Under the pieces are notes generated by a model. The model was given only the letters and a program-made list of their open reading frames with translations, was not told the DNA's origin and searched no databases. From Bacteroidota bacterium (GTDB taxonomy: Bacteria; Bacteroidota; Bacteroidia; J057; JAJTIE01), in NCBI GenBank assembly GCA_019638695.1, contig JAHBTG010000026.1, positions 1 to 35,181 on the forward strand: a DNA stretch of 35,181 nucleotides. Direction: 5' to 3'. Each line of letters begins with the position of its first letter. Position 1 is the stretch's first letter. Positions 2,084 to 20,253 of the stretch are shown here, in pieces. The position numbers were made by a program, and so were the translations under genes.

Positions 2084-2091
2084 TACTTTTG
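2084..2091 (+). promoter_or_regulatory. Candidate -7 element (TACTTTTG) of bamD
   Basis: This is an exact match to the Bacteroidota -7 consensus TAnnTTTG, ending 8 bases before the bamD ATG at 2100. No clear TTG-type -33 element lies 19-21 bases upstream. If used, it would give a very short leader or none. Confidence 0.5.
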
Positions 2092-2099
2092 CTTCCCTT

Positions 2100-3020
2100 A
2101 TGCGCAAGCTGTTTTACTGGTTGGCCCTGGGCCTTGTCTTCTGGACTTCTCAAGCCTGCGACCCCTGTCGCAAGATGGCCAGGAGCAAAGACTTTGCGCT
2201 GAAAGACTCTGCCGCCTATTGTTACTATGAACGGAAACAATATGAGAGCGCTGCCTTGCTGCTGGAAGAACTGGTAGGGGTCTATGGCCCCGGACCCCAG
2301 GCGGAAAAGACGATGTATTACCTGGCCAGCGCCAAATACTATGCAGGTGAGTTACTGACGGCCAGTTTTACCTACAATGAATTTCTGCAGCGCTACCCTG
2401 GCAGTAGCCGCGCCGAGGCAGCCCATTACCAACTGGCACAATGCTATTACCGCATGAGCAACCCCTGGCGCCTGGACCAGCGGGACACCTATACGGCGAT
2501 AGAACGCCTGCAGTTGTTTATAGAACTCTACCCCAACGGAGAACAAGCCAAGGAAGCCACGCGCCAACTGGAAAACCTGCGGAACCGGCTGGCGACCAAA
2601 GCCTTCCGGCAGGCCGATCTGTACCTGAATATCTACCACTACAAAGCGGCCTCCTTTGCATTTAACAGCTTTATGCAGGACTACCCGGACAGTCCTTACC
2701 GGGAGGAGGCGCAGTTCAAGCAATATAAAGCCACCTGGTATTATGCAGATGGCAGTGTAGATGCCAGGAAAAAAGAGCGCTTTGAAGAGGCGAACCGGTT
2801 GTATATCAAGTTCCTGGACAAATACCCCAATAGCAAATACCTGCGTAGTGCCGAACGCTTGTATGCCAGCACTGCCCAGCGCATGACCCTGTCCGGGGAA
2901 AAAAGACTGAAACGGGACCGCAACCAGCGCCGTATGGAACGCCAGGAGAAAGCCGAGACCCAATCCAAAAAGGAGGCGTCTCCCAAGGCTCCTAAAGAAA
3001 AGAAATCCGCAGAGGAGTAA
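2100..3020 (+). CDS. bamD: Outer membrane assembly lipoprotein BamD
   Basis: BamD is the essential lipoprotein partner of BamA in folding beta-barrels into the outer membrane. The protein is 306 residues. The ATG at 2100 is chosen because it opens a signal peptide ending in TSQAC (lipidated Cys20); the earlier in-frame start at 2067 would bury the signal. The mature part is a string of TPR motifs (DSAAYCYYERKQYESAALLLEELV, AGELLTASFTYNEFLQRYPGS, AIERLQLFIELYPNG, YKAASFAFNSFMQDYPDS, EANRLYIKFLDKYPNS), the repeated F-x-x-x-YP pattern being typical of BamD. The C-terminal 45 residues are highly charged (Lys, Glu, Arg) and probably disordered. The gene heads a co-directional group with rpoZ and coaBC, a common Bacteroidota order. 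Confidence 0.92.
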   Translation: MRKLFYWLALGLVFWTSQACDPCRKMARSKDFALKDSAAYCYYERKQYESAALLLEELVGVYGPGPQAEKTMYYLASAKYYAGELLTASFTYNEFLQRYPGSSRAEAAHYQLAQCYYRMSNPWRLDQRDTYTAIERLQLFIELYPNGEQAKEATRQLENLRNRLATKAFRQADLYLNIYHYKAASFAFNSFMQDYPDSPYREEAQFKQYKATWYYADGSVDARKKERFEEANRLYIKFLDKYPNSKYLRSAERLYASTAQRMTLSGEKRLKRDRNQRRMERQEKAETQSKKEASPKAPKEKKSAEE

Positions 3021-3051
3021 TTTTTTTGTCCGGGCAAGTGCGCTCATCTGT

Positions 3052-3059
3052 TATCTTTG
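3052..3059 (+). promoter_or_regulatory. Candidate -7 element (TATCTTTG) of rpoZ-coaBC
   Basis: This is an exact TAnnTTTG match in the bamD-rpoZ gap, 27 bases before the rpoZ ATG. A TTG within a T-run at 3026-3028 could serve as -33, but the 23-base spacing is longer than usual. It suggests rpoZ can be transcribed independently of bamD. Confidence 0.5.
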
Positions 3060-3086
3060 TGCTTTGGAAAAACTTTAGCCGGAATT

Positions 3087-3401
3087 ATGCTGAACCTGCA
3101 AGACGATATCAACATCCAGAGCGTGGATGTGCTGGACCTCACCAGAGGAACCAATAATGTATATAAGTCACTCTCCATCATTGGCCAGCGCGCCAACCAG
3201 CTGGCCGTGCAGATCAAGCAGGAGCTGAGCGGCAAACTGGCAGAATTCGGCCCTCCGGGTGATGGCCTGGAAGAGATCGTGGAGAATGCGGAGCAGATCG
3301 AGATCGCCCGCTATTATGAAGCCCAGCCCAAACCCAGCCTGCTGGCGCTGGATGAGTTCCTCAAGGGCGAGGTCTTCTTCACCGATCCGCTGGAGGCCTA
3401 A
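3087..3401 (+). CDS. rpoZ: RNA polymerase omega subunit, Bacteroidota type
   Basis: Omega is the small RNA polymerase subunit that helps fold and hold beta prime. The protein is 104 residues, matching the Bacteroidota RpoZ-like family. The conserved core is visible as DLTRGTNNVYKSLSIIGQRANQLA (about residues 17-40), in which the Arg-Ala-Asn-Gln segment corresponds to the R-A-x-x-L helix of omega. The C-terminal part, ending LLALDEFLKGEVFF, is a lineage-typical extension. The ATG at 3087 is preferred over a start at 3057 because homologous proteins begin close to this core. It sits 66 bases after bamD and 6 bases before coaBC. Confidence 0.9.
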   Translation: MLNLQDDINIQSVDVLDLTRGTNNVYKSLSIIGQRANQLAVQIKQELSGKLAEFGPPGDGLEEIVENAEQIEIARYYEAQPKPSLLALDEFLKGEVFFTDPLEA

Positions 3402-3407
3402 TTTACT

Positions 3408-4631
3408 ATGTCCCTGGCAGGCAAACAGGTACTGCTGGGCGTATGTGGCAGTATAGCCGCCTATAAGTCCGTTTTTTTACTGCGCCTGCTGCAGCAGGCA
3501 GGCGCCCGTGTGCAGGTGGCCCTCACGCCCAATGTCTCGCGCTTTGTGGGAGAGCTCACCTTCGCGTCTCTCAGCCAGCAGCCGGTATTTGCAGACCTGT
3601 GGAGCACGGAGCAGTCCTGGAGTCAGCATGTACACCGGGCCCGTGCGGCAGACATAGATATCAGAGCACCCGCCACAGCCCATACACTGGCCAAGCTGGC
3701 ACACGGCCTGTGCGACAATGCCGTAACGGCGCTGACGCTCTCGGCACAATGCCCGGTACTGGTATGCCCGGCCATGGATCATGAGATGGTGCGCCACCCG
3801 GCCACACAGGGTAACCTGAACCGGCTGCAAAAACTAGGCTACCAGGTGCTGGCGCCGGAAACCGGGTACCTGGCCAGCGGCGCCACCGGGGAAGGCCGCA
3901 TGGCAGAGCCCGAACAGATCCTGGCCAGAGCAAAAGCTATACTGAACCGGCTGCCACAGCCGCAACAACAACCGCTTGCGGGCCGGCGGCTCCTGGTCAC
4001 AGCAGGGCCCACCCGGGAACCCATAGATCCCGTGCGTTACCTGACGAATCACTCTACCGGCAAGATGGGCGTCGCGCTGGCAAGCACCGCCCGCGCACTG
4101 GGTGCAGAAGTTACCCTGGTACACGGCCCCTTACAGGTGCCGGTACCGGCCGAAGTAGCAAGTGTGCCAGTGGTTACCGCGCAAGAGATGCTGGCCGCCG
4201 TACAGCAACAGTATGCGCACCAGGACATCCTTATTTTTGCCGCAGCCGTGAGCGACTATACGCCTGCCCAAACGGCAACCCATAAGCTCAAAAAACAGGG
4301 TGCGGAACTGAACCTGCCGCTGAAACCTACGGAGGACATTCTGGCATGGGTGGGCCGGCATCGCAACTCCAGGCAGGTATTGGTAGGCTTTGCCCTGGAG
4401 ACCCGGGATGCAGAGGAATATGCCCGCCAGAAACTGACCCGCAAGCAACTGGACTGCATTGTGGTCAACAGCCTGGCCGACGAAGGGGCCGGATTCGGGC
4501 ATGATACCAACCGCATTAGCATACTAGACCAAAACGGACAGGCAGCACGTTATCCCCTTAAGTCCAAGACAGAAGCAGCCCTGGATATCCTGATGTATAT
4601 TGTCCAACATCATTTGCCTCCCAAAGAATAA
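3408..4631 (+). CDS. coaBC: Bifunctional phosphopantothenoylcysteine decarboxylase / synthetase (CoaBC, Dfp)
   Basis: CoaBC makes 4'-phosphopantetheine from 4'-phosphopantothenate and cysteine in coenzyme A synthesis. The protein is 407 residues, full length. The N-terminal flavin-dependent decarboxylase domain (about 1-185) shows the GVCGSIAAYK FMN loop, catalytic His74 in SQHVHRA, APATAHTLAKLAHG and PAMDHEM. The C-terminal synthetase domain (about 190-400) shows VTAGPTREPIDPVRYLTNHSTGKMG and AAAVSDYTPA followed by HKLKK. The loop that carries the catalytic Cys in the E. coli enzyme (ACG) reads YLASGATGEGRM here (154-165), with Ser in place of Cys. The same change occurs, as I recall, in other Bacteroidota enzymes. 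The start at 3408 follows rpoZ by 6 bases. Confidence 0.95.
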   Translation: MSLAGKQVLLGVCGSIAAYKSVFLLRLLQQAGARVQVALTPNVSRFVGELTFASLSQQPVFADLWSTEQSWSQHVHRARAADIDIRAPATAHTLAKLAHGLCDNAVTALTLSAQCPVLVCPAMDHEMVRHPATQGNLNRLQKLGYQVLAPETGYLASGATGEGRMAEPEQILARAKAILNRLPQPQQQPLAGRRLLVTAGPTREPIDPVRYLTNHSTGKMGVALASTARALGAEVTLVHGPLQVPVPAEVASVPVVTAQEMLAAVQQQYAHQDILIFAAAVSDYTPAQTATHKLKKQGAELNLPLKPTEDILAWVGRHRNSRQVLVGFALETRDAEEYARQKLTRKQLDCIVVNSLADEGAGFGHDTNRISILDQNGQAARYPLKSKTEAALDILMYIVQHHLPPKE

Positions 4632-4635
4632 TTCC

Positions 4636-5532
4636 ATGACACGCTGGCTCGGCACACTATTGCTTTGGCTCCTGGCCGTGCCTGTGATGGGGCAGGAACT
4701 GAACTGCACGGTCAACATCCAGAAACCCAATATCCAGGGTATAGATCCGTCTGTATTCCAGAATATGCAGAAGGAGATCTTCGAGTTTATGAACCTGCGC
4801 AAATGGACGCAGGACGACTTCAAGGCCGAAGAGCGCATCAAGTGCAACATCAACATTGTCTTCACCAACGGCAGTCCCGGTGGAGACCGCTTTGAAGGCA
4901 CAATGCAGATACAGGTCATCCGCCCGGTGCTCAACAGCAACTATGAGACCGTGACACTGAATTTCCAGGACCGTGATATGCGCATCAACTATGTGCCTTT
5001 CCAGACGGTGCAGTTCTCCGAGAACACATATATCAACAACCTCAGCTCCATCCTCACCTTCTGGGGCTATGTTATACTGGGCATAGACTACGATACCTTT
5101 GGCAAAGATGCAGGCACGGAGTTCTTTGAGAAAGCCCGCAACATTATGAACCTGGCCGTGCCCGGGGGCGAGCCCGGCTGGCAGGCAATGGACGGCAACC
5201 GCAACCGCTACTGGCTGGTAGAGAACCTGCTGAATAATTCCTACGCAAGCTTCCGGAGCGCCTATTACGGCTACCACCGGCAGGGTCTGGATGCGATGCA
5301 TGAAGACGTGGTCAAAGGACGCAAGGCGGTGCTGAGCAGCCTGGAGACGGTAGAGAAGGTATTCACCCAGAATCCCAACCTGTTTATCATACGGGTGTTT
5401 ACAGATGCCAAGGGCAACGAACTGATCCCTATGTTCAAAAAAGCGGACCCGGCAGATAAGCAGAAGTTTATCCGCATTATGAGCCGGCTGGATCCCAACA
5501 ACGCTTCCAAGTATAACTCCGTCATGGAATAA
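4636..5532 (+). CDS. DUF4835 family exported protein
   Basis: The protein is 298 residues. The ATG at 4636, 4 bases after the coaBC stop, opens a clear signal peptide (MTRWLGTLLLWLLAVPVMGQ), whereas an in-frame ATG at 4600 would put 12 polar residues before it. The mature protein begins ELNCTVNIQ and includes FEGTMQIQVIRPVLNSNYETVTLNFQDRD, YVPF, NLSSILTFWGYVILGIDYDTF and GWQAMDGNRNRYWLVENLLNNSY. These are the recognisable DUF4835 pattern, and linkage to coaBC is a known feature of the family. Some databases associate the family with type IX secretion (PorD); I recall this only loosely and do not rely on it. It is likely periplasmic. Confidence 0.87.
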   Translation: MTRWLGTLLLWLLAVPVMGQELNCTVNIQKPNIQGIDPSVFQNMQKEIFEFMNLRKWTQDDFKAEERIKCNINIVFTNGSPGGDRFEGTMQIQVIRPVLNSNYETVTLNFQDRDMRINYVPFQTVQFSENTYINNLSSILTFWGYVILGIDYDTFGKDAGTEFFEKARNIMNLAVPGGEPGWQAMDGNRNRYWLVENLLNNSYASFRSAYYGYHRQGLDAMHEDVVKGRKAVLSSLETVEKVFTQNPNLFIIRVFTDAKGNELIPMFKKADPADKQKFIRIMSRLDPNNASKYNSVME

Positions 5533-5536
5533 CCCT

Positions 5537-5785: not shown

Positions 5786-5802
5786 ATAAGAATGGCATGC
5801 GT

Positions 5803-5810
5803 TATATTTG
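5803..5810 (+). promoter_or_regulatory. Candidate -7 element (TATATTTG) of the hydrolase gene
   Basis: This exact TAnnTTTG match ends 3 bases before the ATG at 5814, so transcription would begin at or next to the start codon. No Shine-Dalgarno-like sequence lies between. No TTG is seen at the usual -33 distance. Confidence 0.5.
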
Positions 5811-5813
5811 ATC

Positions 5814-7352
5814 ATGCTACAATATTCATTCATCGCGGCGCTGCTCTGGCATCTGTGCAGCCCACTATATGCCCAGGACATCACTGGCTACTGGCAGGGC
5901 AGACTGGAAGCCGGGGGGCAATCCCTGAAGATCGCGTTTTATATCGATGTGCCGGATACCGGAGGGTACTGCTCGTTCCTGTATGTGCCGCAGCAGGGTG
6001 TCCAGAGGCTGCCGGCCACCCGCACTACTTTCCAAAACAACCGGTTGCAGATCCGATTTGACAACCTGGAGGCCTCCTTCCGGGGCCAGCCGTCGGGCGA
6101 CACACTGGAGGGCACATGGCATCAGAACGGGCAGGAGATCCGCACCCGGCTGGTCAGGCTGGAAGCGCCCGCAGCCGCCCCCCTCCCGGAAACACCCGCC
6201 AACCGTCCGCAAACCCCACTGCCTCCATTTCCTTACACGACCGAAGAGGTAGACATACCCGGGCCGCAATGGCCGTTTTCGCTGGCGGGCACGCTCACCC
6301 TGCCCCGGCAGTTACCGCCCAAGGCCACTATCCTGCTGATCACCGGCAGCGGGCCCCAGGATAGAGACGAGACCATTATGGAACACAAACCTTTTGCCGT
6401 CATTGCAGATCATTTTACCCGGCTGGGCTATGCAGTATTGCGCGTGGATGACCGCGGCATGGGTGAGTCAGGCGGCACCCTTGAAGGAGCCACTTCGCTG
6501 GACTTTGCACAGGACGCCAAAACCTGCCTGGCCTATCTGCGCCTGGAGAAACGCCTGGCAGGAGTTCCTATAGGTTTGCTGGGCCACAGCGAAGGCGGAC
6601 TTATCGCTGCGATGATAGCGGAAGAAGAAGGAGACAGCCTCGATTTCTTTATTATGCTGGCCGGACCCGGCCAACCCGGATATGCGCTGCTGGCAGACCA
6701 AAGCCGTGCCATGATGCTGGCAAATGGCCATTCCAAGGCAACAACAGAAGCTTGTTATCAGCTCATCCATGAATGGCTTGACATAGCGCTCAACAGCGTA
6801 GAGAACACAGCCGCTGCCCAGGAGGCGGGTATGGAGGCATACCGCAGATGGCGGGAGGAACAACCCCCTAAAGTGCTGACAGAGCACGTATTATTGGCAC
6901 TATTTGGACAAAGACCAAAACGAAAGCAACCATTAGCTAATGTACCAGCAAAACCGGATACCGCAGCAGAGAATACCGCTATCACGTGGCTCCTGGACAA
7001 GATGATGGCACAGCTAACCACTCCCTGGATGCAGTTCTTTCTGCATACCGATCCCAGCAGATACTTGGAAAACACGCATATCCCCATGCTGGCGCTACTG
7101 GGCAGCCACGATGTGCAGGTAGTGGCAGACCGCAACGTTAAACCCCTGAAGCGGGCGGCCGAAGCCAACGGGAATCCGTTTTCACAGGTCATCGTGCTCA
7201 AGGGGCACAACCACCTCTTCCAGAAAGCCCCGGCCAACCTGGGTATTCGCTATGACGAAGTAGAACAGACCATCAGCCCCCAAACGCTGCGCACCATCGA
7301 AAAATGGCTGCAAAAGGTCCTGGCCAGCCAGCCCCAGAAAGCTACTTTCTGA
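5814..7352 (+). CDS. Exported alpha/beta hydrolase (S33-like) with N-terminal beta domain
   Basis: The protein is 512 residues from the ATG at 5814; a TTG two codons earlier is less likely. A signal peptide ends near SPLYAQ. Residues 22-118 form a beta-rich domain (ITGYWQGRLE, LEGTWHQNG) of the kind found ahead of exported Bacteroidota hydrolases, followed by a Pro/Ala linker. The hydrolase domain has the oxyanion segment ITGSGPQDRDE, the DDRGMGES turn and the nucleophile elbow GHSEGG (Ser259). The acid is probably Asp433 in LGSHDVQV, and the base is His465 or His467 in KGHNHLF. The catalytic set looks complete, so it is probably an esterase or peptidase-like enzyme acting in the periplasm; the substrate is unknown. 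It converges on the next gene with 13 bases between. Confidence 0.85.
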   Translation: MLQYSFIAALLWHLCSPLYAQDITGYWQGRLEAGGQSLKIAFYIDVPDTGGYCSFLYVPQQGVQRLPATRTTFQNNRLQIRFDNLEASFRGQPSGDTLEGTWHQNGQEIRTRLVRLEAPAAAPLPETPANRPQTPLPPFPYTTEEVDIPGPQWPFSLAGTLTLPRQLPPKATILLITGSGPQDRDETIMEHKPFAVIADHFTRLGYAVLRVDDRGMGESGGTLEGATSLDFAQDAKTCLAYLRLEKRLAGVPIGLLGHSEGGLIAAMIAEEEGDSLDFFIMLAGPGQPGYALLADQSRAMMLANGHSKATTEACYQLIHEWLDIALNSVENTAAAQEAGMEAYRRWREEQPPKVLTEHVLLALFGQRPKRKQPLANVPAKPDTAAENTAITWLLDKMMAQLTTPWMQFFLHTDPSRYLENTHIPMLALLGSHDVQVVADRNVKPLKRAAEANGNPFSQVIVLKGHNHLFQKAPANLGIRYDEVEQTISPQTLRTIEKWLQKVLASQPQKATF

Positions 7353-7365
7353 TGAAACCGCCTAT

Positions 7366-7920
7366 CTATTGACGGGATCCTTCCGTCGTATGCTTGCGGA
7401 TAATCTCTTTCAGGCGCGCATCGGAAGAATCCGGCAAAGACTCGAAGAACACAATGGCCTCCCGCGCCACGCGGGCATGGCGGCCGCGGGGGTGCTGGGA
7501 GAGATAGGCTTTGTACAAGCGCTGTGCTTCTTCAGCTTCGCCCAGCTCCACATGTGCAATGGAGGCCATCTGGTACAAGGCTTCCTCAGCCAGCCGGTGT
7601 ACAGGGTATTGTTTCAGCAGTTCGGCATGCAGGGTATAGGCCCGCCGGCCATCTCCCAGCAACAGGGCATTCTGCCCGGCGCGCATCAGTAGCACCGGGG
7701 CCAGGGTATCTTTGGGATGGCCATGTGCCCAGGCTTCCTGCTTACGGGAAAGGGTAAGGATCTTCATAGAATCCAGGGAAGCTTTGCCGGTCTTTGCCTG
7801 CTCCCGGTTCTCGGCCAGTTCTTCCTGTAATTGCTGTATGGCGGCCAGCTCTTTATCCTTGGGGCCGCAAGCCGTGGCCAGTAACCCACTCAACAATAGG
7901 GCAGCAACGAATATCTTCAT
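7366..7920 (-). CDS. TPR-containing lipoprotein
   Basis: The protein is 184 residues from the ATG at 7920, chosen because it starts a lipoprotein signal ending LLATAC (Cys18); the in-frame start at 7941 is rejected. After a short coiled-coil-like segment (LAAIQQLQEELAENREQ) come TPR-like helices: HPKDTLAPVLLMRAGQNALLLGDGRRAYTLHAELLKQYPVHRLAEEALYQMASIAHVELGEAEEAQ and RLYKAYLSQHPRGRHA. This suggests a periplasmic or outer-membrane scaffold. A TATTTTTA octamer (one mismatch to TAnnTTTG) at 7925-7932 ends 4 bases before the start. It follows the T9SS cargo gene by 31 bases on the same strand and is the last gene of this run. Confidence 0.8.
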   Translation of the reverse strand: MKIFVAALLLSGLLATACGPKDKELAAIQQLQEELAENREQAKTGKASLDSMKILTLSRKQEAWAHGHPKDTLAPVLLMRAGQNALLLGDGRRAYTLHAELLKQYPVHRLAEEALYQMASIAHVELGEAEEAQRLYKAYLSQHPRGRHARVAREAIVFFESLPDSSDARLKEIIRKHTTEGSRQ

Positions 7921-7951
7921 CCGGTAAAAATAAGGAGACATCGGCCGATGT

Positions 7952-9541
7952 TTAACGCACGAGTTCTCCCTTGCGCAGATAGCCCCTGCCTTTGATCGTC
8001 AGCTGGAACAGATACGTGCCGGGAGGCTTACCGCTGCAATCCCACCGAATATGGTAGATACCGGCATCCCTGGTCTCATTGAGCAGGGTAGCCACCGGCT
8101 TACCCCTGGCATCCCGCACCTCCAGGCGCACGGCAAGGCGTTCGGGTAATTCAAAGGATACCAGCGTATAGTCCGAGAAAGGATTGGGCGTGAGGGGAAA
8201 CTGCTCCAGCGTGAGGCTACCCGGCGGCGGGGTATCTGCAGAAGGATCCGCCGCCTGTGTTTGAAACTTGACAAAGCGGAGCATGCGCGCATAAGTAGCC
8301 AGCATGGGAATGTCATCCAGCCAGGGCGTACCGGTGTGGAGCAGCCTGCCGGAAAGCACCCGCAGGGAATCCTGGAAGCTGGCGGGCAGCTGGTCTGTCA
8401 GCTCCTGCAGCACAAATACCCAGCGGATATCTGCCGTGGCGCCGCATCGCAGGTACTCCGCCGTGAGGTTACGCCCTGCCCGTAGCAGGGCCGCCTGCAC
8501 CTGCGGGCGCACCCGGGCGGTATCTGCCAGGCGTCCATACAAGCTGGCCAGCGCAATGACCAGGTCAGACTGGCTTTGCGCCTGCGCATCCAGGCTATCG
8601 GGCCAGCGGCCGGTGGGCAACTGGGCAGGTAACAGCGCCAGCCGTGTGACGGCTGTCGCCCGGCTGAGGTAATCGGTATCCTCCAGCAGACTATAGGCAT
8701 AACATAACCCGGTAACCAGCGCCGCATTGTGGCGCATGGCGGCCACGGGCGCCTGGGTAAGCAGGTGGCGGGCCAAACGCTCTCCTACCTGCTTGTAAGC
8801 TGGAAAATTGGTCTCCGCGTAGGCTTTGGCATAGACGCTCATGAGCTTACCATTTACCTGGTAGGCTTCTCCGGTGCCATAGTCATAGCTGAGCCACCCC
8901 TTGGCCGGCAAAGCCACCGTATCATGCGGAATAGGCGGATAATAACGCGTCAGCAGGGGGGGGGGATTGAGAAAGCGGCCTTTCAGGTCCAGGAACGGAA
9001 AGGTGGCGCCACCCTGCCTCAGCTGCATCAGGGTATCCAGGGTATGCAATCCCAGGTTGAGCAGGCGGGCCCGGCGGGTATCGTCCGTACTCAGGTTGGC
9101 CAGCTGCAGCAATGCCAGGCCATATTCCCCCGCTGCGACAGGGCTCAGATTGGGACTACCCTGGGTACCGGGCAGGAACCCCCTTGCCATCCGGCCTAGC
9201 TGGCCGAATAGTTCGGGCTGCTTATCCAGGTTTTTTTCTGCCTGAACAATGACCTGCTCCAGCGTAAGCCAGCGCGTCCGTGTACTTAGTTTGATCCATT
9301 GCTCGGCAAACAAGGGATACCCTGCCTCCACCCCCAGCGTAAGGCGCTGCTCCCGCAGCAGTTCCTGCACACGGTAGCTGTCATTCCGGGCAAACGCCAG
9401 GTTAAGGTCTCCCTCCAGTGCTGCCAGTCGGGCCACCTGCCAGGGCTTCAGGGTCTGCGTCACATCGCACTGTGCGGCTGCGCTTCCTGCACAAACCCCC
9501 AGCCATACTATCCACAGAACAATCCTGCGCAACTGGGTCAA
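7952..9541 (-). CDS. Exported helical protein with T9SS type A C-terminal sorting domain
   Basis: The protein is 529 residues. The start is a TTG at 9541 overlapping the TGA of the upstream gene (TTGA). It is supported by the immediately following signal peptide (IVLWIVWLGVCAGSAAAQ) and by the lack of any ATG until well inside the mature protein. Residues 25-440 look all-helical and resemble a glycoside-hydrolase-like toroid, but I do not recognise a family. The last 80 residues (FPLTPNPFSDYTLVSFELPE, RLEVRDARGKPVATLL, GIYHIRWDCSG, PGTYLFQLTIKG) are a FlgD-like or T9SS type A sorting domain that directs export across the outer membrane. A run of 10 C on the coding strand (8956-8965) encodes PPP at 193-195, followed by the C of a CTG. 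Confidence 0.82.
   Translation of the reverse strand: MTQLRRIVLWIVWLGVCAGSAAAQCDVTQTLKPWQVARLAALEGDLNLAFARNDSYRVQELLREQRLTLGVEAGYPLFAEQWIKLSTRTRWLTLEQVIVQAEKNLDKQPELFGQLGRMARGFLPGTQGSPNLSPVAAGEYGLALLQLANLSTDDTRRARLLNLGLHTLDTLMQLRQGGATFPFLDLKGRFLNPPPLLTRYYPPIPHDTVALPAKGWLSYDYGTGEAYQVNGKLMSVYAKAYAETNFPAYKQVGERLARHLLTQAPVAAMRHNAALVTGLCYAYSLLEDTDYLSRATAVTRLALLPAQLPTGRWPDSLDAQAQSQSDLVIALASLYGRLADTARVRPQVQAALLRAGRNLTAEYLRCGATADIRWVFVLQELTDQLPASFQDSLRVLSGRLLHTGTPWLDDIPMLATYARMLRFVKFQTQAADPSADTPPPGSLTLEQFPLTPNPFSDYTLVSFELPERLAVRLEVRDARGKPVATLLNETRDAGIYHIRWDCSGKPPGTYLFQLTIKGRGYLRKGELVR
8956..8965 (-). repeat. C10 homopolymer in coding sequence
   Basis: Ten consecutive G on the plus strand (C on the coding strand) lie at codons 193-196 of the exported T9SS protein gene. 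The gene is in frame as read here. Gain or loss of one base would truncate the product well before its sorting domain. Such tracts are known slippage sites. Confidence 0.85.
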
Positions 9542-9996
9542 GGAACAGAAATAAAGGCCGTACGATACCGGTTCATCAGGTCATAGACCAGGAAATTGGA
9601 GCGCACCTTGATGAGGCGGCACTTGTTAAAATCTCCGGTGTCATCTGTGAGGCTGATCCACCCGTGGGCCACTGCCCACTTGCCTTTAGTCACCAGGCGC
9701 CCTTTCTGGCTACTGAAGGGTTCGCACGCATAGCGGGCATAAGTGCCATTGGGGTAATACACCACTATCTGGCTTACATAGGTATCCTCCAGCAAGCTAT
9801 AGTCCAGGTCATTGCCAAAACCGCGGTTGTCCCAGTTGCCCACTTCCTTCCAGGCAGTAGCGCACAGGGTAGCGGTAATATCCGGCGCAATGTCCAGCGT
9901 GGAGTCGCTAATAGCCTCTTTAGCAGGCAAAACCAGGTCCTGGGCAAACAGTGGGGATGCGCCCACCAGGAGGAACAGCAGAAGCAGCTTTTTCAT
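9538..9996 (-). CDS. Small exported protein, function unknown
   Basis: The protein is 152 residues from the ATG at 9996, which opens a textbook signal peptide (MKKLLLLFLLVGASPLFAQ). An in-frame start at 10083 would lie in the kinase gene and precede the signal with polar residues. The mature protein has ATAWKEVGNWDNRGFGND, a beta-rich middle (IVVYYPNGTYARYACEPF, KGRLVTKGKWAV) and ends YRTAFISVP. The G-T-Y-x-x-x and 'G-K-W' spacing recalls lipocalin-like exported proteins, but I would not assign a family. The stop overlaps the TTG start of the T9SS cargo gene, so their translation is probably coupled. It lies 49 bases downstream of the histidine kinase gene on the same strand. Confidence 0.75.
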   Translation of the reverse strand: MKKLLLLFLLVGASPLFAQDLVLPAKEAISDSTLDIAPDITATLCATAWKEVGNWDNRGFGNDLDYSLLEDTYVSQIVVYYPNGTYARYACEPFSSQKGRLVTKGKWAVAHGWISLTDDTGDFNKCRLIKVRSNFLVYDLMNRYRTAFISVP

Positions 9997-10001
9997 GTGG
10001 T

Positions 10002-10009
10002 TAAAAATA
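10002..10009 (-). promoter_or_regulatory. Possible -7-like octamer (TATTTTTA)
   Basis: This octamer has one mismatch to TAnnTTTG and ends 5 bases before the ATG at 9996. The same octamer sits 4 bases before the ATG at 7920. It is weak on its own and noted because of the shared position. Confidence 0.3.
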
Positions 10010-10045: not shown

Positions 10046-11359
10046 CTATGCCAGGGGAAGACAAAAACTGAAACAGGACCCATGGCCGGGTCGGCTCTCT
10101 ATATGCAGCTCTGCACCATGGGCATTCAGCAGGCTTTTCACCACTGCCAGGCCCAGTCCTGTGCCTCCCTGGCTGCGGGCACGGGCGCTATCTGTGCGAT
10201 AAAAACGGTCTGTAAGATGGGGTAAGTGCTCTGCCGCAATCCCCGGCCCCGTATCTGACACGCTGACCTCCACCTCCCTGCCCCGGACGTCAGCAGCCAG
10301 GATGATCGTACCCTGGTGGCAATATTTGAGGGCATTGGACAAGAGGTTGTCCAGCACCTGCTCCAGCCTGGCGGCATCTGCCGCTACCTGCACGGCAGGC
10401 ACCCGCTGATGAAACACCAGCCCCTTGGCCGCTATGCCGTCCAGGTAGGGCTGCGCTGCACGGGTAGCCAGTTCATCCAGCCGAAAAACGGACGTATGCA
10501 CAAAGCCGGGCTGATGGTCTGCCTGCTGCAGGGTGAGCACATCCTGGAAAAGCTGGGCCATACGATCCGTCTGGTTCTGCAAAATATCCAGGTAACGTGC
10601 ATGGGCAGCAGGGTCATCGGGGCGGAGGCGGAGCATCTCCAGGGCACCTTTCATCACATGCAACGGGTTATTAAGCTCGTGGGCAATATCCGTATAGAAA
10701 CGGCTTTGCCGGTCATTCAGCTCGCGCAGGCGGACATTGTCCCGCTGGAGATTATGGCTCACACTGTTCAGGGCACGGGCGATCATCCCAATCTCGTCTT
10801 TGCGCCGGCTATCGCGGGCCAGCAGCTCGGGTTTGCCACGGGCTATCTCTTCCAGGGTTCTCTTAATGCGCACAATGGGACGGGATAGCGTGAGCGAGAG
10901 CAGGATAGCGGCCAAAGCTACCAGTCCCAGGGTAACAAACATGGCATGATAGATGATCCAGCGGATAGGACGCAGTTCTTCCAGTACAGTGGCTTTTTCC
11001 AGGGCCAGCACCAGCAGGCCTCCCTGCGGCAAGGGACGGGAGACCAGGAGCAGGGAATCATTTTGCGGGGGCAGGGTGCGCAGTTGCTGCAGGTCGAGCG
11101 CCAAATGGCGGTCTGCGCACAGCAATTTACCACGCGCATCCAGGACAGCGGCGCGGTAGGTGCGGCGGGCAGCCCGCTGGCACAGCACCTGAGGGTCTGA
11201 AGTGGTTTCCATCAATTCCTGTGCAAAACGCAGCAGTTCCTGCCGTTTCTGGGCATAGAGATGGTCTCGTATGAACAGAATGGAATAGCCTATGGTCATG
11301 AGAACGGCAGCTGCCATCAGCAGGATAAAGAGCCCGGCGATCTTGCGGCGCAGTCTCAT
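10046..11359 (-). CDS. Sensor histidine kinase
   Basis: The protein is 437 residues. TM1 lies about 9-30 and TM2 about 135-158, enclosing a roughly 100-residue periplasmic sensor segment. A HAMP domain (about 159-206) follows, then a HisKA dimerisation helix with FYTDIAHELNNPL and phospho-acceptor His227. The ATP-binding domain has N-box DNLLSNALKY, G1 DTGPGI and G2 GGTGLGL (399-404). All catalytic boxes are intact. The ATG overlaps the stop of the response regulator by 4 bases (ATGA), so the two form an ordinary two-component pair. The signal sensed cannot be read from the sequence. The following genes encode exported proteins, which are possible regulon members or operon partners. Confidence 0.95.
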   Translation of the reverse strand: MRLRRKIAGLFILLMAAAVLMTIGYSILFIRDHLYAQKRQELLRFAQELMETTSDPQVLCQRAARRTYRAAVLDARGKLLCADRHLALDLQQLRTLPPQNDSLLLVSRPLPQGGLLVLALEKATVLEELRPIRWIIYHAMFVTLGLVALAAILLSLTLSRPIVRIKRTLEEIARGKPELLARDSRRKDEIGMIARALNSVSHNLQRDNVRLRELNDRQSRFYTDIAHELNNPLHVMKGALEMLRLRPDDPAAHARYLDILQNQTDRMAQLFQDVLTLQQADHQPGFVHTSVFRLDELATRAAQPYLDGIAAKGLVFHQRVPAVQVAADAARLEQVLDNLLSNALKYCHQGTIILAADVRGREVEVSVSDTGPGIAAEHLPHLTDRFYRTDSARARSQGGTGLGLAVVKSLLNAHGAELHIESRPGHGSCFSFCLPLA

Positions 11360-12051
11360 ATCGATTCGGGATTGATACCATAGCCCAGCCCACGCTGCGT
11401 GGCGATCATGGCAGCCTCTGCCCCAAGCTTATGGCGCAGGTTTTTGATATGCGCATCTACCGTGCGAATACCCATGACCTTGTCTTCGCGCGCGCCAAGG
11501 GCATCTGCCAGTTCTTCGCGGGAGAAGATGCGGCGGGGCTGGCCAGCCAGCAGGTGCAGCAGGTAATACTCCGTGGGAGTGAGCCCCAGCTCTCTGCCCG
11601 CATAGCTGGCCCGCAACTGCGAAGGCTCCAGCAACAGCGCCCCCAGCGCAATGTGGTCTGATTCTGTGCGGTGTCGCCTGAGCAATGCCAGCACATGTGC
11701 ATGGATCTCCGCCAGTCCGGCGGGCTTGCGCACATAGGCGTCCGCTCCCATTGCCAGGCCCCGCACCACATCGGCTTCGCGGTCCAGGGCAGTGAGCAAG
11801 AGCACCGGCAGATGCAGGGTTTCCCGCTGCGCGCGCAGGGCTGCCAGGATACGCAACCCATCCACTTCCGGCAACATGACATCCAGCACCGCCAGGCTCA
11901 GGCTATGGCCTTCCTGCTGAATGCGCAGAAGAGCAGCCGCGCCGCTGGTCTCCCAGGTCACCAGGTAGCCCTGCATCTCCAGGTAGTCCCGCAGCAACTG
12001 GCCGGCATCCGGTTCGTCTTCTACCAAAAGGATATGGGTGGCGGCACGCAT
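11356..12051 (-). CDS. OmpR/PhoB-family response regulator
   Basis: The protein is 231 residues. The receiver domain (about 5-118) has acidic pocket Glu11-Asp12, phospho-acceptor Asp57 in LAVLDVMLPEVDG, Thr87 and Lys109 in VRKPAG. The C-terminal winged-helix domain includes LGLTPTEYYLLHLLAGQPRRIFSREEL and a recognition-helix region with RTVDAHIKNLRHKLG, ending in the wing RGLGYGIN. This is a classical transcriptional regulator and not the PorX type, which lacks this DNA-binding domain. It is the first gene of a five-gene minus-strand run ending at 7366. Confidence 0.95.
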   Translation of the reverse strand: MRAATHILLVEDEPDAGQLLRDYLEMQGYLVTWETSGAAALLRIQQEGHSLSLAVLDVMLPEVDGLRILAALRAQRETLHLPVLLLTALDREADVVRGLAMGADAYVRKPAGLAEIHAHVLALLRRHRTESDHIALGALLLEPSQLRASYAGRELGLTPTEYYLLHLLAGQPRRIFSREELADALGAREDKVMGIRTVDAHIKNLRHKLGAEAAMIATQRGLGYGINPESI

Positions 12052-12055: not shown

Positions 12056-12063
12056 CAATTTTA
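12056..12063 (-). promoter_or_regulatory. Candidate -7 element (TAAAATTG) of the two-component operon
   Basis: This octamer has one mismatch to TAnnTTTG and ends 4 bases before the regulator ATG at 12051, with CAGC between. It lies in the 137-base divergent gap shared with the DUF2490 gene. That gap is AT-rich and shows no other clear element. Confidence 0.4.
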
Positions 12064-14611: not shown

Positions 14612-14634
14612 AGGTAACCGGCAAGAGGTTACCT
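14612..14634 (-). terminator. Perfect 8-bp hairpin at the end of the helicase gene
   Basis: AGGTAACC (14612-14619) and GGTTACCT (14627-14634) form a perfect inverted repeat with a 7-base loop. It overlaps the helicase stop codon and lies before the barrel gene. No strong T-run follows on the minus strand, so it may be a weak terminator, an mRNA-stabilising stem or an operator. Confidence 0.4.
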
Positions 14635-17600
14635 AAAAAGGCACTTGTTCTATCTTGACTTTATCCAGGTATACCAACAGGCCTTCTGTGGGCCGGAGCC
14701 CCATATCTGCCAGTGCCTGGAGATATTGCCGCACCTGGCGGATGTGCGCGGGCTGGGGCTGCCCGGTCTTGTAGTCTATCACTACTGCGTGCGGATGCTT
14801 TACCACCACACGGTCCGGCCGCAGCAGTTCTCCCCGGGAGCCCAGGATATCCAGTTCGGGATAATGGGCCCAATCCGGCTGTAAATAGGGTGCCAGTTGT
14901 GGCAAATGCAGGATCCCCGCTAACTGGTCTTTCAGAAGGCTCTGTTGCGGCACGGAGATCAGTCCTTCCTGCACGGCATGTGCCAGCACCTGGGGCAAGT
15001 CGGCAGGGGTAGCTATGCGGGAGAGCAACAGGTGAAACAGTTCGCCCCTTGCAATGGCCATCTCCTCGCGGCCGCCGAGGGGAGTGCGGTTCCGCAGTTG
15101 TAACACTTGTTGCCAGGCAGGATGCTCCTGATAGCACAGGGGCGTCTCCGCCGCAGGCACAGCTGAGGTTTCTGCAGCGGACCGGGCAACCTGCCGCTGG
15201 CGCATGCCCGACTCCCACACCTGTGCCTCAGTCCAGTGGTCTGCCAGCTGCAGGCTATGGGGGGACGCCCGGGTTTCCGTGCTGCGCAAGGCCAGCAGGA
15301 GGAGTTCGTCCACTTGTGAGATCCCTGCATATTTTTCCCGGGGTTTATGGGGGATGAGCATATACAGTTGTTCTATGGCACGGGTAAGTCCCACATAAAG
15401 GCTATTGATCTTGTCCAGCAGAAAGTCCTGATATTCTTGCTGGTGGGCATTGGCAAAGAGGCTGTCCCGCAGAAGCCTGGAGAGCCGGAGAGGGTATGCC
15501 TCTGCCTGCAGGAAAGGCGCCTGCCGGTCTGCCCACACAATGTCTCCATAAGCCGCAGGTTTCAGGCTCCAGTTGGCAAACGGCAGGATGACCACCGGAA
15601 ACTCCAGTCCCTTGGACTTATGGATAGTCATGACTTGTAACGCCTGGTTACCCGGCAGAAGGGTTACCGGTTTTTGATGCCCTTCTTCTTCATAGAACCG
15701 CAGAAAATCTGCCAGTGAACTCCCTTGCTGTGCCTGGGCGTGCAGTTGTGCGAAGAACGCGGTCAGGTAAGCATCATGGGTCTGCCCTGCCGGCACCAGG
15801 TCCAGCAAACGCGCCAGGGTCGTGGCCTGTGCATACACCGGGAGTTGCAACAGCTCCGGCAACTGAAGCGGCAGGCGATAGGAGAGCACCTCCTGCGGAT
15901 GGACTTGCGTGGGCATAGGCCGTCCTTGCAGCGCGCACAGACCTGCAGCGGCAGCATACAGGGCTATATGGTCTTCCGGGTTAGCCAGCCAGCGGAGTGC
16001 TTCCACCAGTATGCGCACCCGCGCGCCGGCATGCACCACCAATCCCTGCGCCGCATACACCTGGTAACCCGCTGCCATCAGCAGCTGAGTGACCTGGCTG
16101 GCTTCGGCATTGGTATTCACCAGCAAGGCGATATCCGAGGGTGCATAACCCAGGTCCAGGATCTCCTGCACGAGTCCGGGCAAACGCGCCACTACCTGCT
16201 GTACAGGCAAAGGCTCTTCTTCCGTGGGTTCAAATACCTCTGCCCGCACATACCCCCCTGTCGTATGGGAAGGTAACTGCGCAGCATCTTCATATACCTG
16301 GCCCAGGAGCCGGGCGATAGCGGATGCCTCCAGGTCATCGTGGTATGGGAGGCGGGGAATAGCGGCGCAGATACTGTTGTTGAAATGCACCACCTGGGCC
16401 AGGCTCCTGTAATTGTGCGCCAGGGTCTGTTCTTCGGGGGCCTGCCCCTGCATCTGCCGGATATCCTGCCGGGCCACCTCGCGCAGCAGATTACTGTTGC
16501 CGCCCCGGAAACGGTAGATACTCTGCTTGACGTCTCCGACCAGCAGGGCTTCTCCTTCCACGGCCAGGGCATTCTCCACCAAGGGCAGCAGGTTCTCCCA
16601 CTGCAGGGAGCTGGTATCCTGGAATTCGTCCAGGAAGATGCGGTTGTAACGTTCGCCCAGCTTCTCATAGAGGAAAGGTACACTGCCTTCCCGGTGCAGG
16701 CGGGCGATCAGCTGCCCGGCTTCTCCTATCAAGACCATGCCCTCGGCCTGTTTATATGCATCCAGGCCCTCTCGCAGGTGCTCATACAGCCCCAGCCGGA
16801 AGAGGCTTTCCCGCACGAGCCAGGCAGCCGCAGCCGTCTGCCGCCGGGGGTCTTCCGGGTTACCTGCCAGGTCATAGAGCTGTTGTAACACGGCAAGCAA
16901 CCCGTTGTCCATAGCCTTATCTATGGCCAGGCCCTTGGTAGCGGTTTTACTATACCAGTTCTGGTTGCCGGCAAGCGCCCGCACAAAGGTAACCCCGGCT
17001 TCCATCAGCAGGAAGGGCTTGCCCGCTTTCAGGTCAAATACCAGGTTCTTCAGCGGGTTGAGAATGTTCCTGCTGTAGAAATCCTCATACCGGAGGTCAT
17101 ATTGCTGCAAGTAACCCTCTGCCTGTGCTACCAGCGCTTCCACCTGAGAGCGGTGGGTGCGCAGAATGTCCCGGGTAAGGGTTCTCAGCTCATCCAGGTC
17201 TTGCGCACTCAGGTGCAGCCGGAGCAAATGCGGCAGATGTTTGTCGGAAAGCAACTGGGCAGACAGCCCCTGGAGCAAGGCATCGGGCTGCCAGGTTTTC
17301 TGGTTCTGCATCTGTTCCAGGGCATAGCTGAGTACCCATTGGGTCAGGGTTTCATCCCGGCCCAGCCGGCGCAGCAGGTCATCTGCCATGTAGCGGGTAA
17401 CCCGCTCTGTATTCATCTCCAGCGTGTGTTCCCAGGGCAGGCCCAGTTCTGCCACAAAGGCGGCGATCACCTGCTGAAAGAAGCTGTCTATGGTATACAC
17501 ACCGATACGCCCGTAATCCTGCAGCAGATGGCTAAGGAGGCAGTGCGCCCGCCGGGTGAGCGTGTCATCGGAGACATCCAGCCGGCGGCAAAGATAGCGG

Positions 17601-17812
17601 CGCAACGGCGCCTGCTGCTGCGGCTGATGAGACAGCTCAAAAAGAAAGCGCAGCAGGCGGTCCTTGATCTCGGCAGTGGCTTTGCGCGTGAAGGTGATGG
17701 ACAGGATCTGCCGGTAGGCCTGAGGCTCAGCCAACGCCTGGCAAAGCCAGGTTTGGGCCAGCGTATAGGTTTTGCCGCTGCCGGCACTCGCTTTATAGAT
17801 GGTGGCTGGCAT
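14633..17812 (-). CDS. RecB/AddA-like UvrD-family helicase with C-terminal nuclease domain
   Basis: The protein is 1059 residues. It carries the superfamily 1 helicase motifs in order: Walker A ASAGSGKT (residues 8-15), FTRKATAEI, TIDSF, motif II FLDEFQDT (about 393-400), LVGDVKQSIYRFRGGN (about 424-439), AHNYRS, QVMTIHKSKGLEFPVVILPF and LYVGLTRA. The last 90 residues hold a PD-(D/E)XK nuclease core: GELFHLLLSRI, then RPDRVVV, VIDYKTG and QVRQYLQAL, as in AddA and RecB. It should therefore process double-strand ends for recombination. The ATG at 17812 is preferred to a GTG at 17845, because relatives begin about 10 residues before the Walker motif and GAGGG precedes it. No AddB-type partner is adjacent. 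Confidence 0.92.
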   Translation of the reverse strand: MPATIYKASAGSGKTYTLAQTWLCQALAEPQAYRQILSITFTRKATAEIKDRLLRFLFELSHQPQQQAPLRRYLCRRLDVSDDTLTRRAHCLLSHLLQDYGRIGVYTIDSFFQQVIAAFVAELGLPWEHTLEMNTERVTRYMADDLLRRLGRDETLTQWVLSYALEQMQNQKTWQPDALLQGLSAQLLSDKHLPHLLRLHLSAQDLDELRTLTRDILRTHRSQVEALVAQAEGYLQQYDLRYEDFYSRNILNPLKNLVFDLKAGKPFLLMEAGVTFVRALAGNQNWYSKTATKGLAIDKAMDNGLLAVLQQLYDLAGNPEDPRRQTAAAAWLVRESLFRLGLYEHLREGLDAYKQAEGMVLIGEAGQLIARLHREGSVPFLYEKLGERYNRIFLDEFQDTSSLQWENLLPLVENALAVEGEALLVGDVKQSIYRFRGGNSNLLREVARQDIRQMQGQAPEEQTLAHNYRSLAQVVHFNNSICAAIPRLPYHDDLEASAIARLLGQVYEDAAQLPSHTTGGYVRAEVFEPTEEEPLPVQQVVARLPGLVQEILDLGYAPSDIALLVNTNAEASQVTQLLMAAGYQVYAAQGLVVHAGARVRILVEALRWLANPEDHIALYAAAAGLCALQGRPMPTQVHPQEVLSYRLPLQLPELLQLPVYAQATTLARLLDLVPAGQTHDAYLTAFFAQLHAQAQQGSSLADFLRFYEEEGHQKPVTLLPGNQALQVMTIHKSKGLEFPVVILPFANWSLKPAAYGDIVWADRQAPFLQAEAYPLRLSRLLRDSLFANAHQQEYQDFLLDKINSLYVGLTRAIEQLYMLIPHKPREKYAGISQVDELLLLALRSTETRASPHSLQLADHWTEAQVWESGMRQRQVARSAAETSAVPAAETPLCYQEHPAWQQVLQLRNRTPLGGREEMAIARGELFHLLLSRIATPADLPQVLAHAVQEGLISVPQQSLLKDQLAGILHLPQLAPYLQPDWAHYPELDILGSRGELLRPDRVVVKHPHAVVIDYKTGQPQPAHIRQVRQYLQALADMGLRPTEGLLVYLDKVKIEQVPF

Positions 17813-17863
17813 GCCCTCAAGATAGCAGGCAACCCGTGCCGGCACAAGTCTTATACCGGGCGC

Positions 17864-18739
17864 CTATTCTTCCTCCGCACCCAGGCCGCCCAGCGTATCG
17901 TCAAACCGCACCTCAATATCCTGCAGCAACTGCTTGTAGGTGGCGGCCTGCTCTTCCTTGCCTTCCTGGGCCAGCGCTTCGGCTATGGCCTGGATGAGGT
18001 GCAGGATGACGTAGATATTGGACAGCGGCTTATAGGTGTTCACATTGGGGTCTGCCTTCAGCTTGCTGAGGAAGTCCTGCACCTGCTGGGGGGTAAAGAA
18101 CATGCCTTTGTTATACGCATCAATGTAAAAATGCGTGGTACGGCTGATATAGCGGAGGGCATAGTAACCCTTGAAGTTGACCACCTGCAGGGGGATATCC
18201 AGTTCCTGGCAAATGATGGCATAGAACAGGCTCATAGAGAGACTGTTTCCCCGTTTGCTGTCGATCAGCTGGCCCATGAAGTTATTGTCCGAGCGTTCGG
18301 GTTCCTGGAAGTTACCCACGTATTTCTCCACGTTGAACAGCTGGCGATTGATCACCACCAGTTTTTCCAGATCGTTCATCCCGGTAGCCAGTTGCAGCCA
18401 TATCTTGCTCACCAGTTTTTTGATCTCGTTCCGGTACTTCTGGCTATCCAGGGTGGGGAAACGGATCTGCGTGAGAATCATCCAGCCATCGATAAGGTCT
18501 TTGCCGCCACTCAGCCGCCACTCATAGAGTTCGCGGGTATAGTGGTCTACCTGTATATGATAGATCAGCTCCTCCAGCCGGTTCTGGATAGTAGCATCCT
18601 GGGTACGTTCCCAGGCTTCTTCCAGCAGGGTAATACCCTGGGTACCCAGGCTCATAAGTTCCTGCTCCACCTGGCGGGCCACGGTGGGGTCCGTGTCATC
18701 CAGCAGGCGAACCAATGCTTCAAATTTATTTCTTTCCAT
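17864..18739 (-). CDS. SirB1-type transglutaminase-like protein
   Basis: The protein is 291 residues with no signal peptide. The N-terminal third is helical and HEAT-like (FEALVRLLDDTDPTVARQVEQELMSLG, ITLLEEAW). The central part (about 80-235) matches the transglutaminase-like SirB1/TPR family: LIDGWMILTQIRFP, NFMGQLIDSKRGNSLSMSLFYAIICQELDIPLQVVNFKGYYALRY, HFYIDAYNKGMFFTPQQ. In this family the catalytic Cys is often replaced, and here the position after the R-G-x-x-x-S segment is Ser, so enzymatic activity is doubtful. The C-terminus is helical. The gene ends 51 bases before the helicase gene on the same strand; whether the link is functional is unknown. Confidence 0.85.
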   Translation of the reverse strand: MERNKFEALVRLLDDTDPTVARQVEQELMSLGTQGITLLEEAWERTQDATIQNRLEELIYHIQVDHYTRELYEWRLSGGKDLIDGWMILTQIRFPTLDSQKYRNEIKKLVSKIWLQLATGMNDLEKLVVINRQLFNVEKYVGNFQEPERSDNNFMGQLIDSKRGNSLSMSLFYAIICQELDIPLQVVNFKGYYALRYISRTTHFYIDAYNKGMFFTPQQVQDFLSKLKADPNVNTYKPLSNIYVILHLIQAIAEALAQEGKEEQAATYKQLLQDIEVRFDDTLGGLGAEEE

Positions 18740-18948
18740 AATGATTACCCGTTGAGGGGGAAGAATGAAATAGCGCGCAGGTATTGTGGTTTGTGCTTTT
18801 AATCCTCAAAGAAGCAACAGTACCTCATACATACCCATTACGCCATATGTTTCGGTTTCGTTACAAACATGGTGCCAATCGCCAGACACCCGGTTTGTAT
18901 GGCAACATAAGGGGTAAAGCTCAAGACGTTTTGTCAGGCGCCGGACGT

Positions 18949-18970
18949 TTTATCCACGGTTTATCCACGG
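18949..18970 (+). repeat. Tandem 11-base repeat containing TTATCCACG
   Basis: TTTATCCACGG occurs twice back to back. Each unit contains TTATCCACG, one base from the DnaA box TTATCCACA. The pair sits 25-46 bases upstream of the ATG at 18998. It could be a regulator or DnaA binding site. Confidence 0.7.
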
Positions 18971-18983
18971 ACAGCAAAACCCG

Positions 18984-18991
18984 TAGCTTTG
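18984..18991 (+). promoter_or_regulatory. Candidate -7 element (TAGCTTTG)
   Basis: This exact TAnnTTTG match ends 6 bases before the ATG at 18998. The tandem 11-base repeat lies just upstream, where a -33 contact or activator would be expected. Confidence 0.5.
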
Positions 18992-18997
18992 CAAGAG

Positions 18998-19705
18998 ATG
19001 AAAGAACTGGTCTGGATGTTAATAGGCACCTGCATGGCAAGCATAGGGATGGCTCAGACACAGACTCCCAAACCCACTTTCTTCCAGGGCAAGGTGGTAT
19101 TCGATATCCGGTACGATGCCACGACTATGGGACTTCATCCCATGTGGGGAGACAGCGCGGTCCTATCCTACGGGCCCAAGGTCCTGCACTTCGAGTTTTT
19201 CCCGGACACAGCACAGAGTACCTCCTCCGCTTACAGGCGTTCCCTTCGTCACATCTGGCTGTTGCCGGACGAGAAGCGTATCTGCTGGCAATACGCCCTG
19301 GCCGACACGCTGCATTGGGCACACGGCCAGGATTACAGGTATACGCTCTATGGCATGTCCTTATCCCTCACGGCAGACAGTTTGCTGGGTTTTGCTACCC
19401 AGAGCCTGTTGCTGATGAAGCGCGACCCGGGATTGCCGCTGGATCTGCTGATGCCGGTGCGCTACACATTTGCACCGGCGCTGTCCTTGCCTGTAGGATA
19501 CTTTGCTCCTTTTACAGGCAGCCTGTGGCATATCTATAGCCGCAAAGCCAAAAGTGTGTTTCTCGATTACCATGTCAGCTTCTGGGAAGAAGGCAGGTTT
19601 ATGCACTGGCATGCCCGGCGCGTGGAACAGGAACCTGCAGAACCCAGACTGCCTTCAGCCGAATGGCCCAGGGAATACGACCCGCAAACCGTAGTTTTGT
19701 ATTGA
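18998..19705 (+). CDS. Exported protein of unknown function
   Basis: The protein is 235 residues. The ATG at 18998 opens a signal peptide (ELVWMLIGTCMASIGMAQ); a TTG three codons earlier is less likely. The mature protein is beta-rich: FFQGKVVFDIRYDATTMG, SAVLSYGPKVLHFEFF, RHIWLLPDEKRICWQYA, YTLYGMSLSLTADSLLGF. The opening pattern 'F-x-G-K-V-x-F-D-I-x-Y', followed by strands that carry a measured quantity, resembles exported GLPGLI-like or DUF4412-like proteins of Bacteroidota, but the match is loose and I do not assign it. Its stop TGA shares one base with the hpt ATG (TGATG). Confidence 0.75.
   Translation: MKELVWMLIGTCMASIGMAQTQTPKPTFFQGKVVFDIRYDATTMGLHPMWGDSAVLSYGPKVLHFEFFPDTAQSTSSAYRRSLRHIWLLPDEKRICWQYALADTLHWAHGQDYRYTLYGMSLSLTADSLLGFATQSLLLMKRDPGLPLDLLMPVRYTFAPALSLPVGYFAPFTGSLWHIYSRKAKSVFLDYHVSFWEEGRFMHWHARRVEQEPAEPRLPSAEWPREYDPQTVVLY
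19692..19699 (+). promoter_or_regulatory. Candidate -7 element (TAGTTTTG) of hpt
   Basis: This exact TAnnTTTG match lies inside the 3' end of the upstream coding sequence and ends 5 bases before the hpt ATG at 19705. It could give a leaderless hpt transcript in addition to read-through. Confidence 0.45.
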
Positions 19706-20253
19706 TGGACAGCCTGCACCCTATAGCTCTCCGGGACAAGACCTTTGTCCCGTATATTACCCAACCGCAGATCGAGACCAGGGTGCAGCAGCTGGCAGCA
19801 GCACTGAATGACTACTATGGCACCCAAACGGTATTGCTGATGCCTATCCTCACCGGTGCCCTGCGTTTTGTGGCGGGGCTGCTGCCCTTGCTGGAGTTTC
19901 CTTATGAACTGCACTGCATTCAGATCAGCACCTATGCAACGGAAATGAGCGCGCAAAAAGCTCCTGCCTACACCCTGGCGCCCCCATGCCCCCTGCCCGG
20001 GCTGCCCGTGCTGTTACTGGAAGATATTGTAGACACAGGGCACACGCTGGACTTTGTCATACAAGACCTGCTGCAGGCAGGTGAAACCGAAGTGCAATGC
20101 GCCAGCCTGCTCTTTAAGCCCGCCGCATACAAAGGCGCGCACCGCCCCCGTTTCGTGGGGTTTGAGATTCCCAACGCATTTGTTGTGGGGTATGGACTGG
20201 ACTATGCCCAGCAAGGCCGCCACCTGCCCCACCTCTACCAACTGGCTCCCTGA
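19705..20253 (+). CDS. hpt: Hypoxanthine phosphoribosyltransferase
   Basis: Hpt salvages hypoxanthine and guanine to IMP and GMP using PRPP in the cytoplasm. The protein is 182 residues, a normal length. The ATG at 19705 overlaps the upstream stop by one base and gives the expected N-terminus, with KTFVPYITQPQIETRVQQLAAALNDYY. The PRPP-binding loop is LLLEDIVDTGHTL (about 109-121). A PRPP/pyrophosphate loop (LLMPILTGALRFVAGLL) and the base-binding region, with FKPAAYK then RFVGFEIPNAFVVGYGLDY, are intact. The stop in turn overlaps the helicase gene (TGATG). Confidence 0.95.
   Translation: MDSLHPIALRDKTFVPYITQPQIETRVQQLAAALNDYYGTQTVLLMPILTGALRFVAGLLPLLEFPYELHCIQISTYATEMSAQKAPAYTLAPPCPLPGLPVLLLEDIVDTGHTLDFVIQDLLQAGETEVQCASLLFKPAAYKGAHRPRFVGFEIPNAFVVGYGLDYAQQGRHLPHLYQLAP

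Follow-up and report, generated by a model that had tools for sequence, protein, structure and literature searches.

The σABfr promoters of Bacteroidota combine a −33 element, TTTG, with a −7 element, TAnnTTTG, and leaderless mRNAs are already known in the phylum as a minority. For Bacteroides thetaiotaomicron, 3.7% with a 5′ untranslated region under 10 nt was reported (PMC7366714), for Flavobacterium psychrophilum 5.5% leaderless (PMC9723704) and for Flavobacterium johnsoniae ~13% with leaders no longer than 10 nt (PMC6847099). Since the mapped species show 4–13%, leaderless mRNA was dismissed as an explanation for the lack of Shine–Dalgarno signals in Bacteroidota. A survey of 953 bacterial genomes, which could see only Pribnow-like boxes, recorded leaderless genes in 1 genome of the 37 from Bacteroidetes/Chlorobi (PMC3160421). 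In Actinobacteria and Deinococcus–Thermus (Zheng et al. 2011, PMC3160421), leaderless genes form a major genomic class with a box at a fixed distance before the ATG. The family described here is alike in both respects, but those lineages use TA-like boxes and this family uses another promoter.

That promoter matches the σABfr type in its −7 octamer, in the depletion of G at the fourth position of the octamer and in the Bacteroidota-type sigma factor that accompanies it. It differs in that a large share of genes carry the octamer directly against the start codon and that no −33 element was seen. Compared with the TAHHTTTG of F. johnsoniae, the third position tolerates G (14–15%; as in TAGCTTTG and TAGTTTTG). 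The minor leaderless class of Bacteroides and Flavobacterium shares this promoter and, presumably, its mechanism.

The window, by which we mean the whole stretch of 35,181 nucleotides analysed, is contig 66 of a 2.94-Mb draft genome in 146 contigs and has a G+C content of 56%. The nearest relatives of its CoaBC are found in the Bacteroidia metagenome-assembled genome (MAG) CC_bin17 (54% identity) and in Chitinophagales MAGs. The genome encodes a primary sigma factor of Bacteroidota type, a single PF04539 match in a 288-aa ORF, and TAnnTTTG is therefore the expected −7 element. This sigma factor is short, with region 1.1 judged absent from its length and N terminus only.

The original prediction held that exact octamers before four start codons, and one-mismatch octamers before three others, mark likely leaderless genes. 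All seven sites lie at the positions and distances given in it (Table 1), and family profiles agree with its gene names for bamD, hpt, the response regulator (OmpR/PhoB type) and the alpha/beta hydrolase. For hpt, Pribosyltran scored above and TIGR01203 (E = 8e-35) below the cut-off; profile searches matched no family to the 18998–19705 protein. Signal peptides begin exactly at the ATGs at 2100, 5814, 18998, 7920 and 9996, and lipoboxes follow the starts at 2100 (SQAC) and 7920 (ATAC). This placement makes 2100 and 7920 better starts than the longer ORFs from 2067 and 7941 that a caller may choose, and the octamer can correct such automated calls.

Table 1. Promoter elements and genes in the window. 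Gap, intervening bases between octamer and start codon.
Feature	Position	Strand	Details
Exact −7 element TACTTTTG	2084–2091	+	Gap 8 to bamD ATG 2100
bamD, outer membrane assembly lipoprotein	2100–3020	+	TIGR03302 above cut-off; N terminus MRKLFYWLALGLVFWTSQAC
Exact −7 element TATCTTTG, contrast with ordinary spacing	3052–3059	+	Gap 27 to ATG 3087
Exact −7 element TATATTTG	5803–5810	+	Gap 3 to ATG 5814
Exported alpha/beta hydrolase, predicted leaderless	5814–7352	+	Pfam Hydrolase_4; signal peptide at 5814
Variant −7 element TATTTTTA	7925–7932	−	Gap 4 to ATG 7920 of lipoprotein gene 7366–7920
Variant −7 element TATTTTTA	10002–10009	−	Gap 5 to ATG 9996 of exported protein gene 9538–9996
Weak candidate TAAAATTG	12056–12063	−	Gap 4 to ATG 12051 of OmpR-type response regulator 11356–12051
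Exact −7 element TAGCTTTG	18984–18991	+	Gap 6 to ATG 18998
Exported protein, predicted leaderless	18998–19705	+	Signal peptide MKELVWMLIGTCMASIGMAQ
Exact −7 element TAGTTTTG	19692–19699	+	Gap 5 to hpt ATG, inside last codons of upstream gene
hpt, hypoxanthine phosphoribosyltransferase, predicted leaderless from internal promoter	19705–20253	+	
Exact −7 element TACTTTTG, contrast with leader	23685–23692	−	Gap 17 to prfA ATG 23667
Exact −7 element TAAATTTG, contrast	34842–34849	+	Gap 20 to ATG 34870

The claim that these sites exceed chance also stood: four of 30 starts in the window carry an exact octamer at gaps 3–8, a position occupied before 0.18% of in-gene ATGs (p = 2.5e-7) and 0.65% of antisense intergenic ATGs (p = 4e-5). 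In this frequency the window is typical of its own genome. An AT-rich word falling near starts by chance would gain some support from the 1.7-fold over-representation of octamers at any position of the window (22 exact matches versus 12.7 expected; 3 of 100 shuffles reached 22). A genome-wide scan by distance from starts, which had been proposed as the test with a peak expected at 3–9 bases, bears on this directly. We scanned stretches of the window genome totalling 0.81 Mb, with 621 usable starts from a simple gene caller, which learned from long ORFs and used neither the motif nor any other upstream sequence. Exact octamers numbered 3, 18, 11, 4, 5 and 2 at gaps 3 to 8, respectively, then 4 in all at gaps 9–15 (background 3.7) and 83 at gaps 16–60 (background 24). 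The same peak at 4–5 appears in a raw count made without gene calls. Exact octamers at gaps 3–8 precede 6.9% of starts in this sample, rising to 15.5% with up to one mismatch.

Both genomes of the family comparison, that of the window and that of a sister genus (G422), show the peak at 4–5, background level at 9–15 and a rise at 16–60. Combined, they hold 78 exact octamers at gaps 3–8, 9 at 9–15 and 35 at 16–22, a depletion at 9–15 with p = 2e-7. The spacing between box and start codon is thus narrowly fixed and distinct from that of the leadered promoters; leaders of ~5–11 nt are nearly absent, so that leaderless and leadered classes are separate. Gaps 4–5 alone hold 49 exact octamers in the family versus 1.7 expected, and a Firmicutes control has no such excess. 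With the in-gene ATGs (0.18% versus 6.9% of starts), these gap controls refute chance as a general explanation, and we assign it virtually no weight.

One-mismatch sites are weaker evidence than exact octamers. At gaps 4–5 they number 24 in the genome sample versus 9 expected from gaps 9–15, an excess that was repeated (34 versus 10). The variant TAnnTTTA, the type found before 7920 and 9996, is among the commonest of them and is enriched at gaps 4–5 (5 versus 0.6; 6 versus 1.1 in the sister genus). As its mismatch class is little enriched genome-wide, TAAAATTG before the response-regulator gene is a doubtful promoter, and individual one-mismatch sites, this one above all, may still be due to chance. 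The start codon itself says little: where an exact octamer stands at gaps 3–6, ATG is the start in 66 of 67 cases, against a background already at 93–95%.

The octamer might alternatively be a translation-initiation signal on leadered mRNA. Its position falls within the reach of a ribosome footprint at the start codon, and the phylum lacks Shine–Dalgarno signals and uses other upstream bases (PMC6847099). A translation signal, however, would not explain why a second group of identical octamers lies at 16–60 nt with an empty zone between, nor why the motif is letter for letter the σABfr −7 element and peaks at just the promoter-to-start distance that has been published. The A(−12/−11) and T(−8/−7) signal found before free genes is, moreover, much weaker before operon-internal genes. 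We regard a translational role as very unlikely. In both family genomes and in all gene classes, ~70–80% of genes have a pyrimidine immediately before the start codon; as this includes tightly packed genes, it is not only a transcription-start preference.

In F. johnsoniae, transcription starts 4–5 nt after the −7 element (PMC6847099), so that with an octamer 4 or 5 nt before the ATG the first transcribed base would be the A itself or the base preceding it. The peak at gaps 4–5 coincides with this measured distance, which makes leaderless transcription the natural reading. Shine–Dalgarno cores are depleted before starts (2.7% versus 6.1%), in keeping with this reading. By analogy with Flavobacterium, the same 4–5-nt spacing would hold in the window family, and RNA polymerase would begin either at the A of the ATG or a few bases upstream of it. 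Gaps of 3–6 would then give leaderless mRNAs and gaps of 7–8 leaders of ~1–4 nt; ribosomes would find the 5′-terminal AUG without a Shine–Dalgarno sequence or any real leader, and the mRNAs would be translated in this form. We consider it highly probable that the octamers are ordinary σABfr −7 elements that make mRNAs leaderless or near-leaderless as a family-wide promoter class, which would comprise ~6–7% of starts (exact octamers, gaps 3–8) and ~40% of recognisable exact-octamer promoters. A −33 element (TTG or TTTG) was sought in 43 abutting and 82 leadered promoters and no offset was enriched; F. johnsoniae likewise showed no clear one (PMC6847099), so that the element cannot be strictly required.

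The leaderless interpretation of the window genes thus gains from the genome-wide peak at the expected spacing, with three amendments. Besides the doubtful response-regulator site, the essential bamD, with its gap of 8, is better called near-leaderless than leaderless, with a predicted leader of 3–4 nt. hpt is perhaps also read from an operon: its ATG overlaps the stop codon of the upstream exported-protein gene (TGATG), and its octamer may act as an internal promoter in addition to transcription of the operon. The pair at 18998–20253 are overlapping genes, each with an abutting octamer, giving two predicted leaderless promoters. At some genes, hpt included, a leadered transcript from further upstream may also be made.

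This raises the question of whether abutting octamers are real but secondary, with the main transcripts of most such genes starting further upstream and carrying a normal leader. The hpt overlap fits such an arrangement, as does the abutting octamer at 13 of 292 closely packed family starts: genes spaced by <25 nt carry it in 4.5% of cases (7.2% for free genes), and some abutting octamers are therefore internal promoters. By contrast, 65 of the 78 octamer-abutting starts belong to free or divergent genes, and the close spacing at bamD, conserved across the phylum, points to the main promoter there. We judge it improbable that the octamers are mostly secondary.

Leaderless or near-leaderless transcription from these octamers would account for a considerable part of the promoters in this family. 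Background-subtracted, the abutting share of detectable exact-octamer promoters is 40% in the window genome (bootstrap 95% CI 29–53%), a figure that covers exact octamers only and rests on our own gene calls. It is 38% (28–51%) in the sister genus, 33% (21–48%) in a member of the same class (G041), 15% (2–31%) in Chitinophaga polysaccharea and 0 (upper limit 7%) in Saprospira grandis. The layout therefore looks several times commoner in the window family than reported for studied Bacteroidota, an indirect comparison, as our share of ~40% is sequence-based and the published Bacteroides and Flavobacterium figures are transcript data.

Whole-genome counts of TAHHTTTG followed by ATG, independent of genes, compared gaps 3–6 with gaps 9–12. 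The latter served as control because reversing the pattern is imperfect (301 versus 207 in the Firmicutes genome). The window genome gave 201:56 and the sister genus 158:41, and ratios in the rest of the order were 0.8 to 2.0 (G431 and G392, which appear identical (CC_bin17) with all counts equal, were counted once). Within its order, the strong excess is limited to the window family. Chitinophaga gave 376:303 and Saprospira 281:219, and the Firmicutes control, Sporosarcina, in which we know of no TAnnTTTG-type promoter, gave 301:292. An even stronger excess, with ratios of 4.7–6.9, occurs in four genomes of a family from another class, f26 (G101, G113, G136 and G363; 94:20, 55:11, 69:10 and 61:11). 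Judged by these counts, f26 is another lineage in which leaderless genes may be widespread, and the abutting layout probably arose more than once.

The octamers are conserved between relatives. Exact octamers at gaps 3–8 precede the window-genome member of five among 190 reciprocal best orthologue pairs with the sister genus; in all five the octamer is kept there with at most one mismatch, versus 26 of the 185 other pairs (p = 9e-5). bamD in the sister genus has TACCTTTG at gap 7. Across 24 non-Bacteroidales Bacteroidota bamD loci with a recognisable lipoprotein start, an exact octamer lies 5–10 nt before the ATG in 19 and a one-mismatch octamer in two more; in Bacteroidales (mostly Rikenellaceae), it is 22–55 nt away or there is none. 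Three genomes of the same order have the hpt octamer at gap 3, and others have it at gaps 7–20; in the sister genus, where start placement is ambiguous, no octamer was found before the nearest ATG. The element before prfA, leadered in the window, recurs in the sister genus at gap 12.

Taken together, we lean slightly towards a broader reading, in which leaderless transcription would be a main promoter architecture of the window family and, separately, of f26 (~40% of recognisable promoters, with ~5–11-nt leaders nearly absent), missed by surveys seeking only TATA-like boxes, and in which the near-leaderless bamD promoter would be ancient in the phylum. What is new is the abutting share, its restriction to one family and how deeply the layout at bamD is conserved; our literature search found no paper reporting a family-level share or conservation of this layout. 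If a third or more of promoters are indeed of this kind, the dismissal of leaderless mRNA extends no further than the species that were examined, and the phylum would offer a natural comparison set for how non-Shine–Dalgarno ribosomes choose between leaderless and leadered mRNAs. In relatives that can be cultured, the conserved bamD layout could be put to a concrete test.

In many relatives, pyrimidines dominate the short bamD leader, which often ends CTCCTTT-ATG and, in the window family, CCCTT-ATG (window 2092–2099). Its letters are those of the usual 16S rRNA 3′ tail, CCUCCUUU. A search for a ribosomal change behind the layout found 16S rRNA missing from both family assemblies and bS21 present in both, and loss of bS21 was therefore rejected as the cause.

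Elsewhere in the window, PorD (NF052317), a type IX secretion protein, is encoded at 4636–5532, adjoining coaBC and bamD, and type IX sorting tails occur on the proteins at 7952–9541 (weak) and 32836–33780. Large secreted-type ORFs on the minus strand at 29681–34675, including an M43 peptidase and a Por tail, score poorly on codons with the model of the genome itself; this run may be recently acquired, or simply repetitive.
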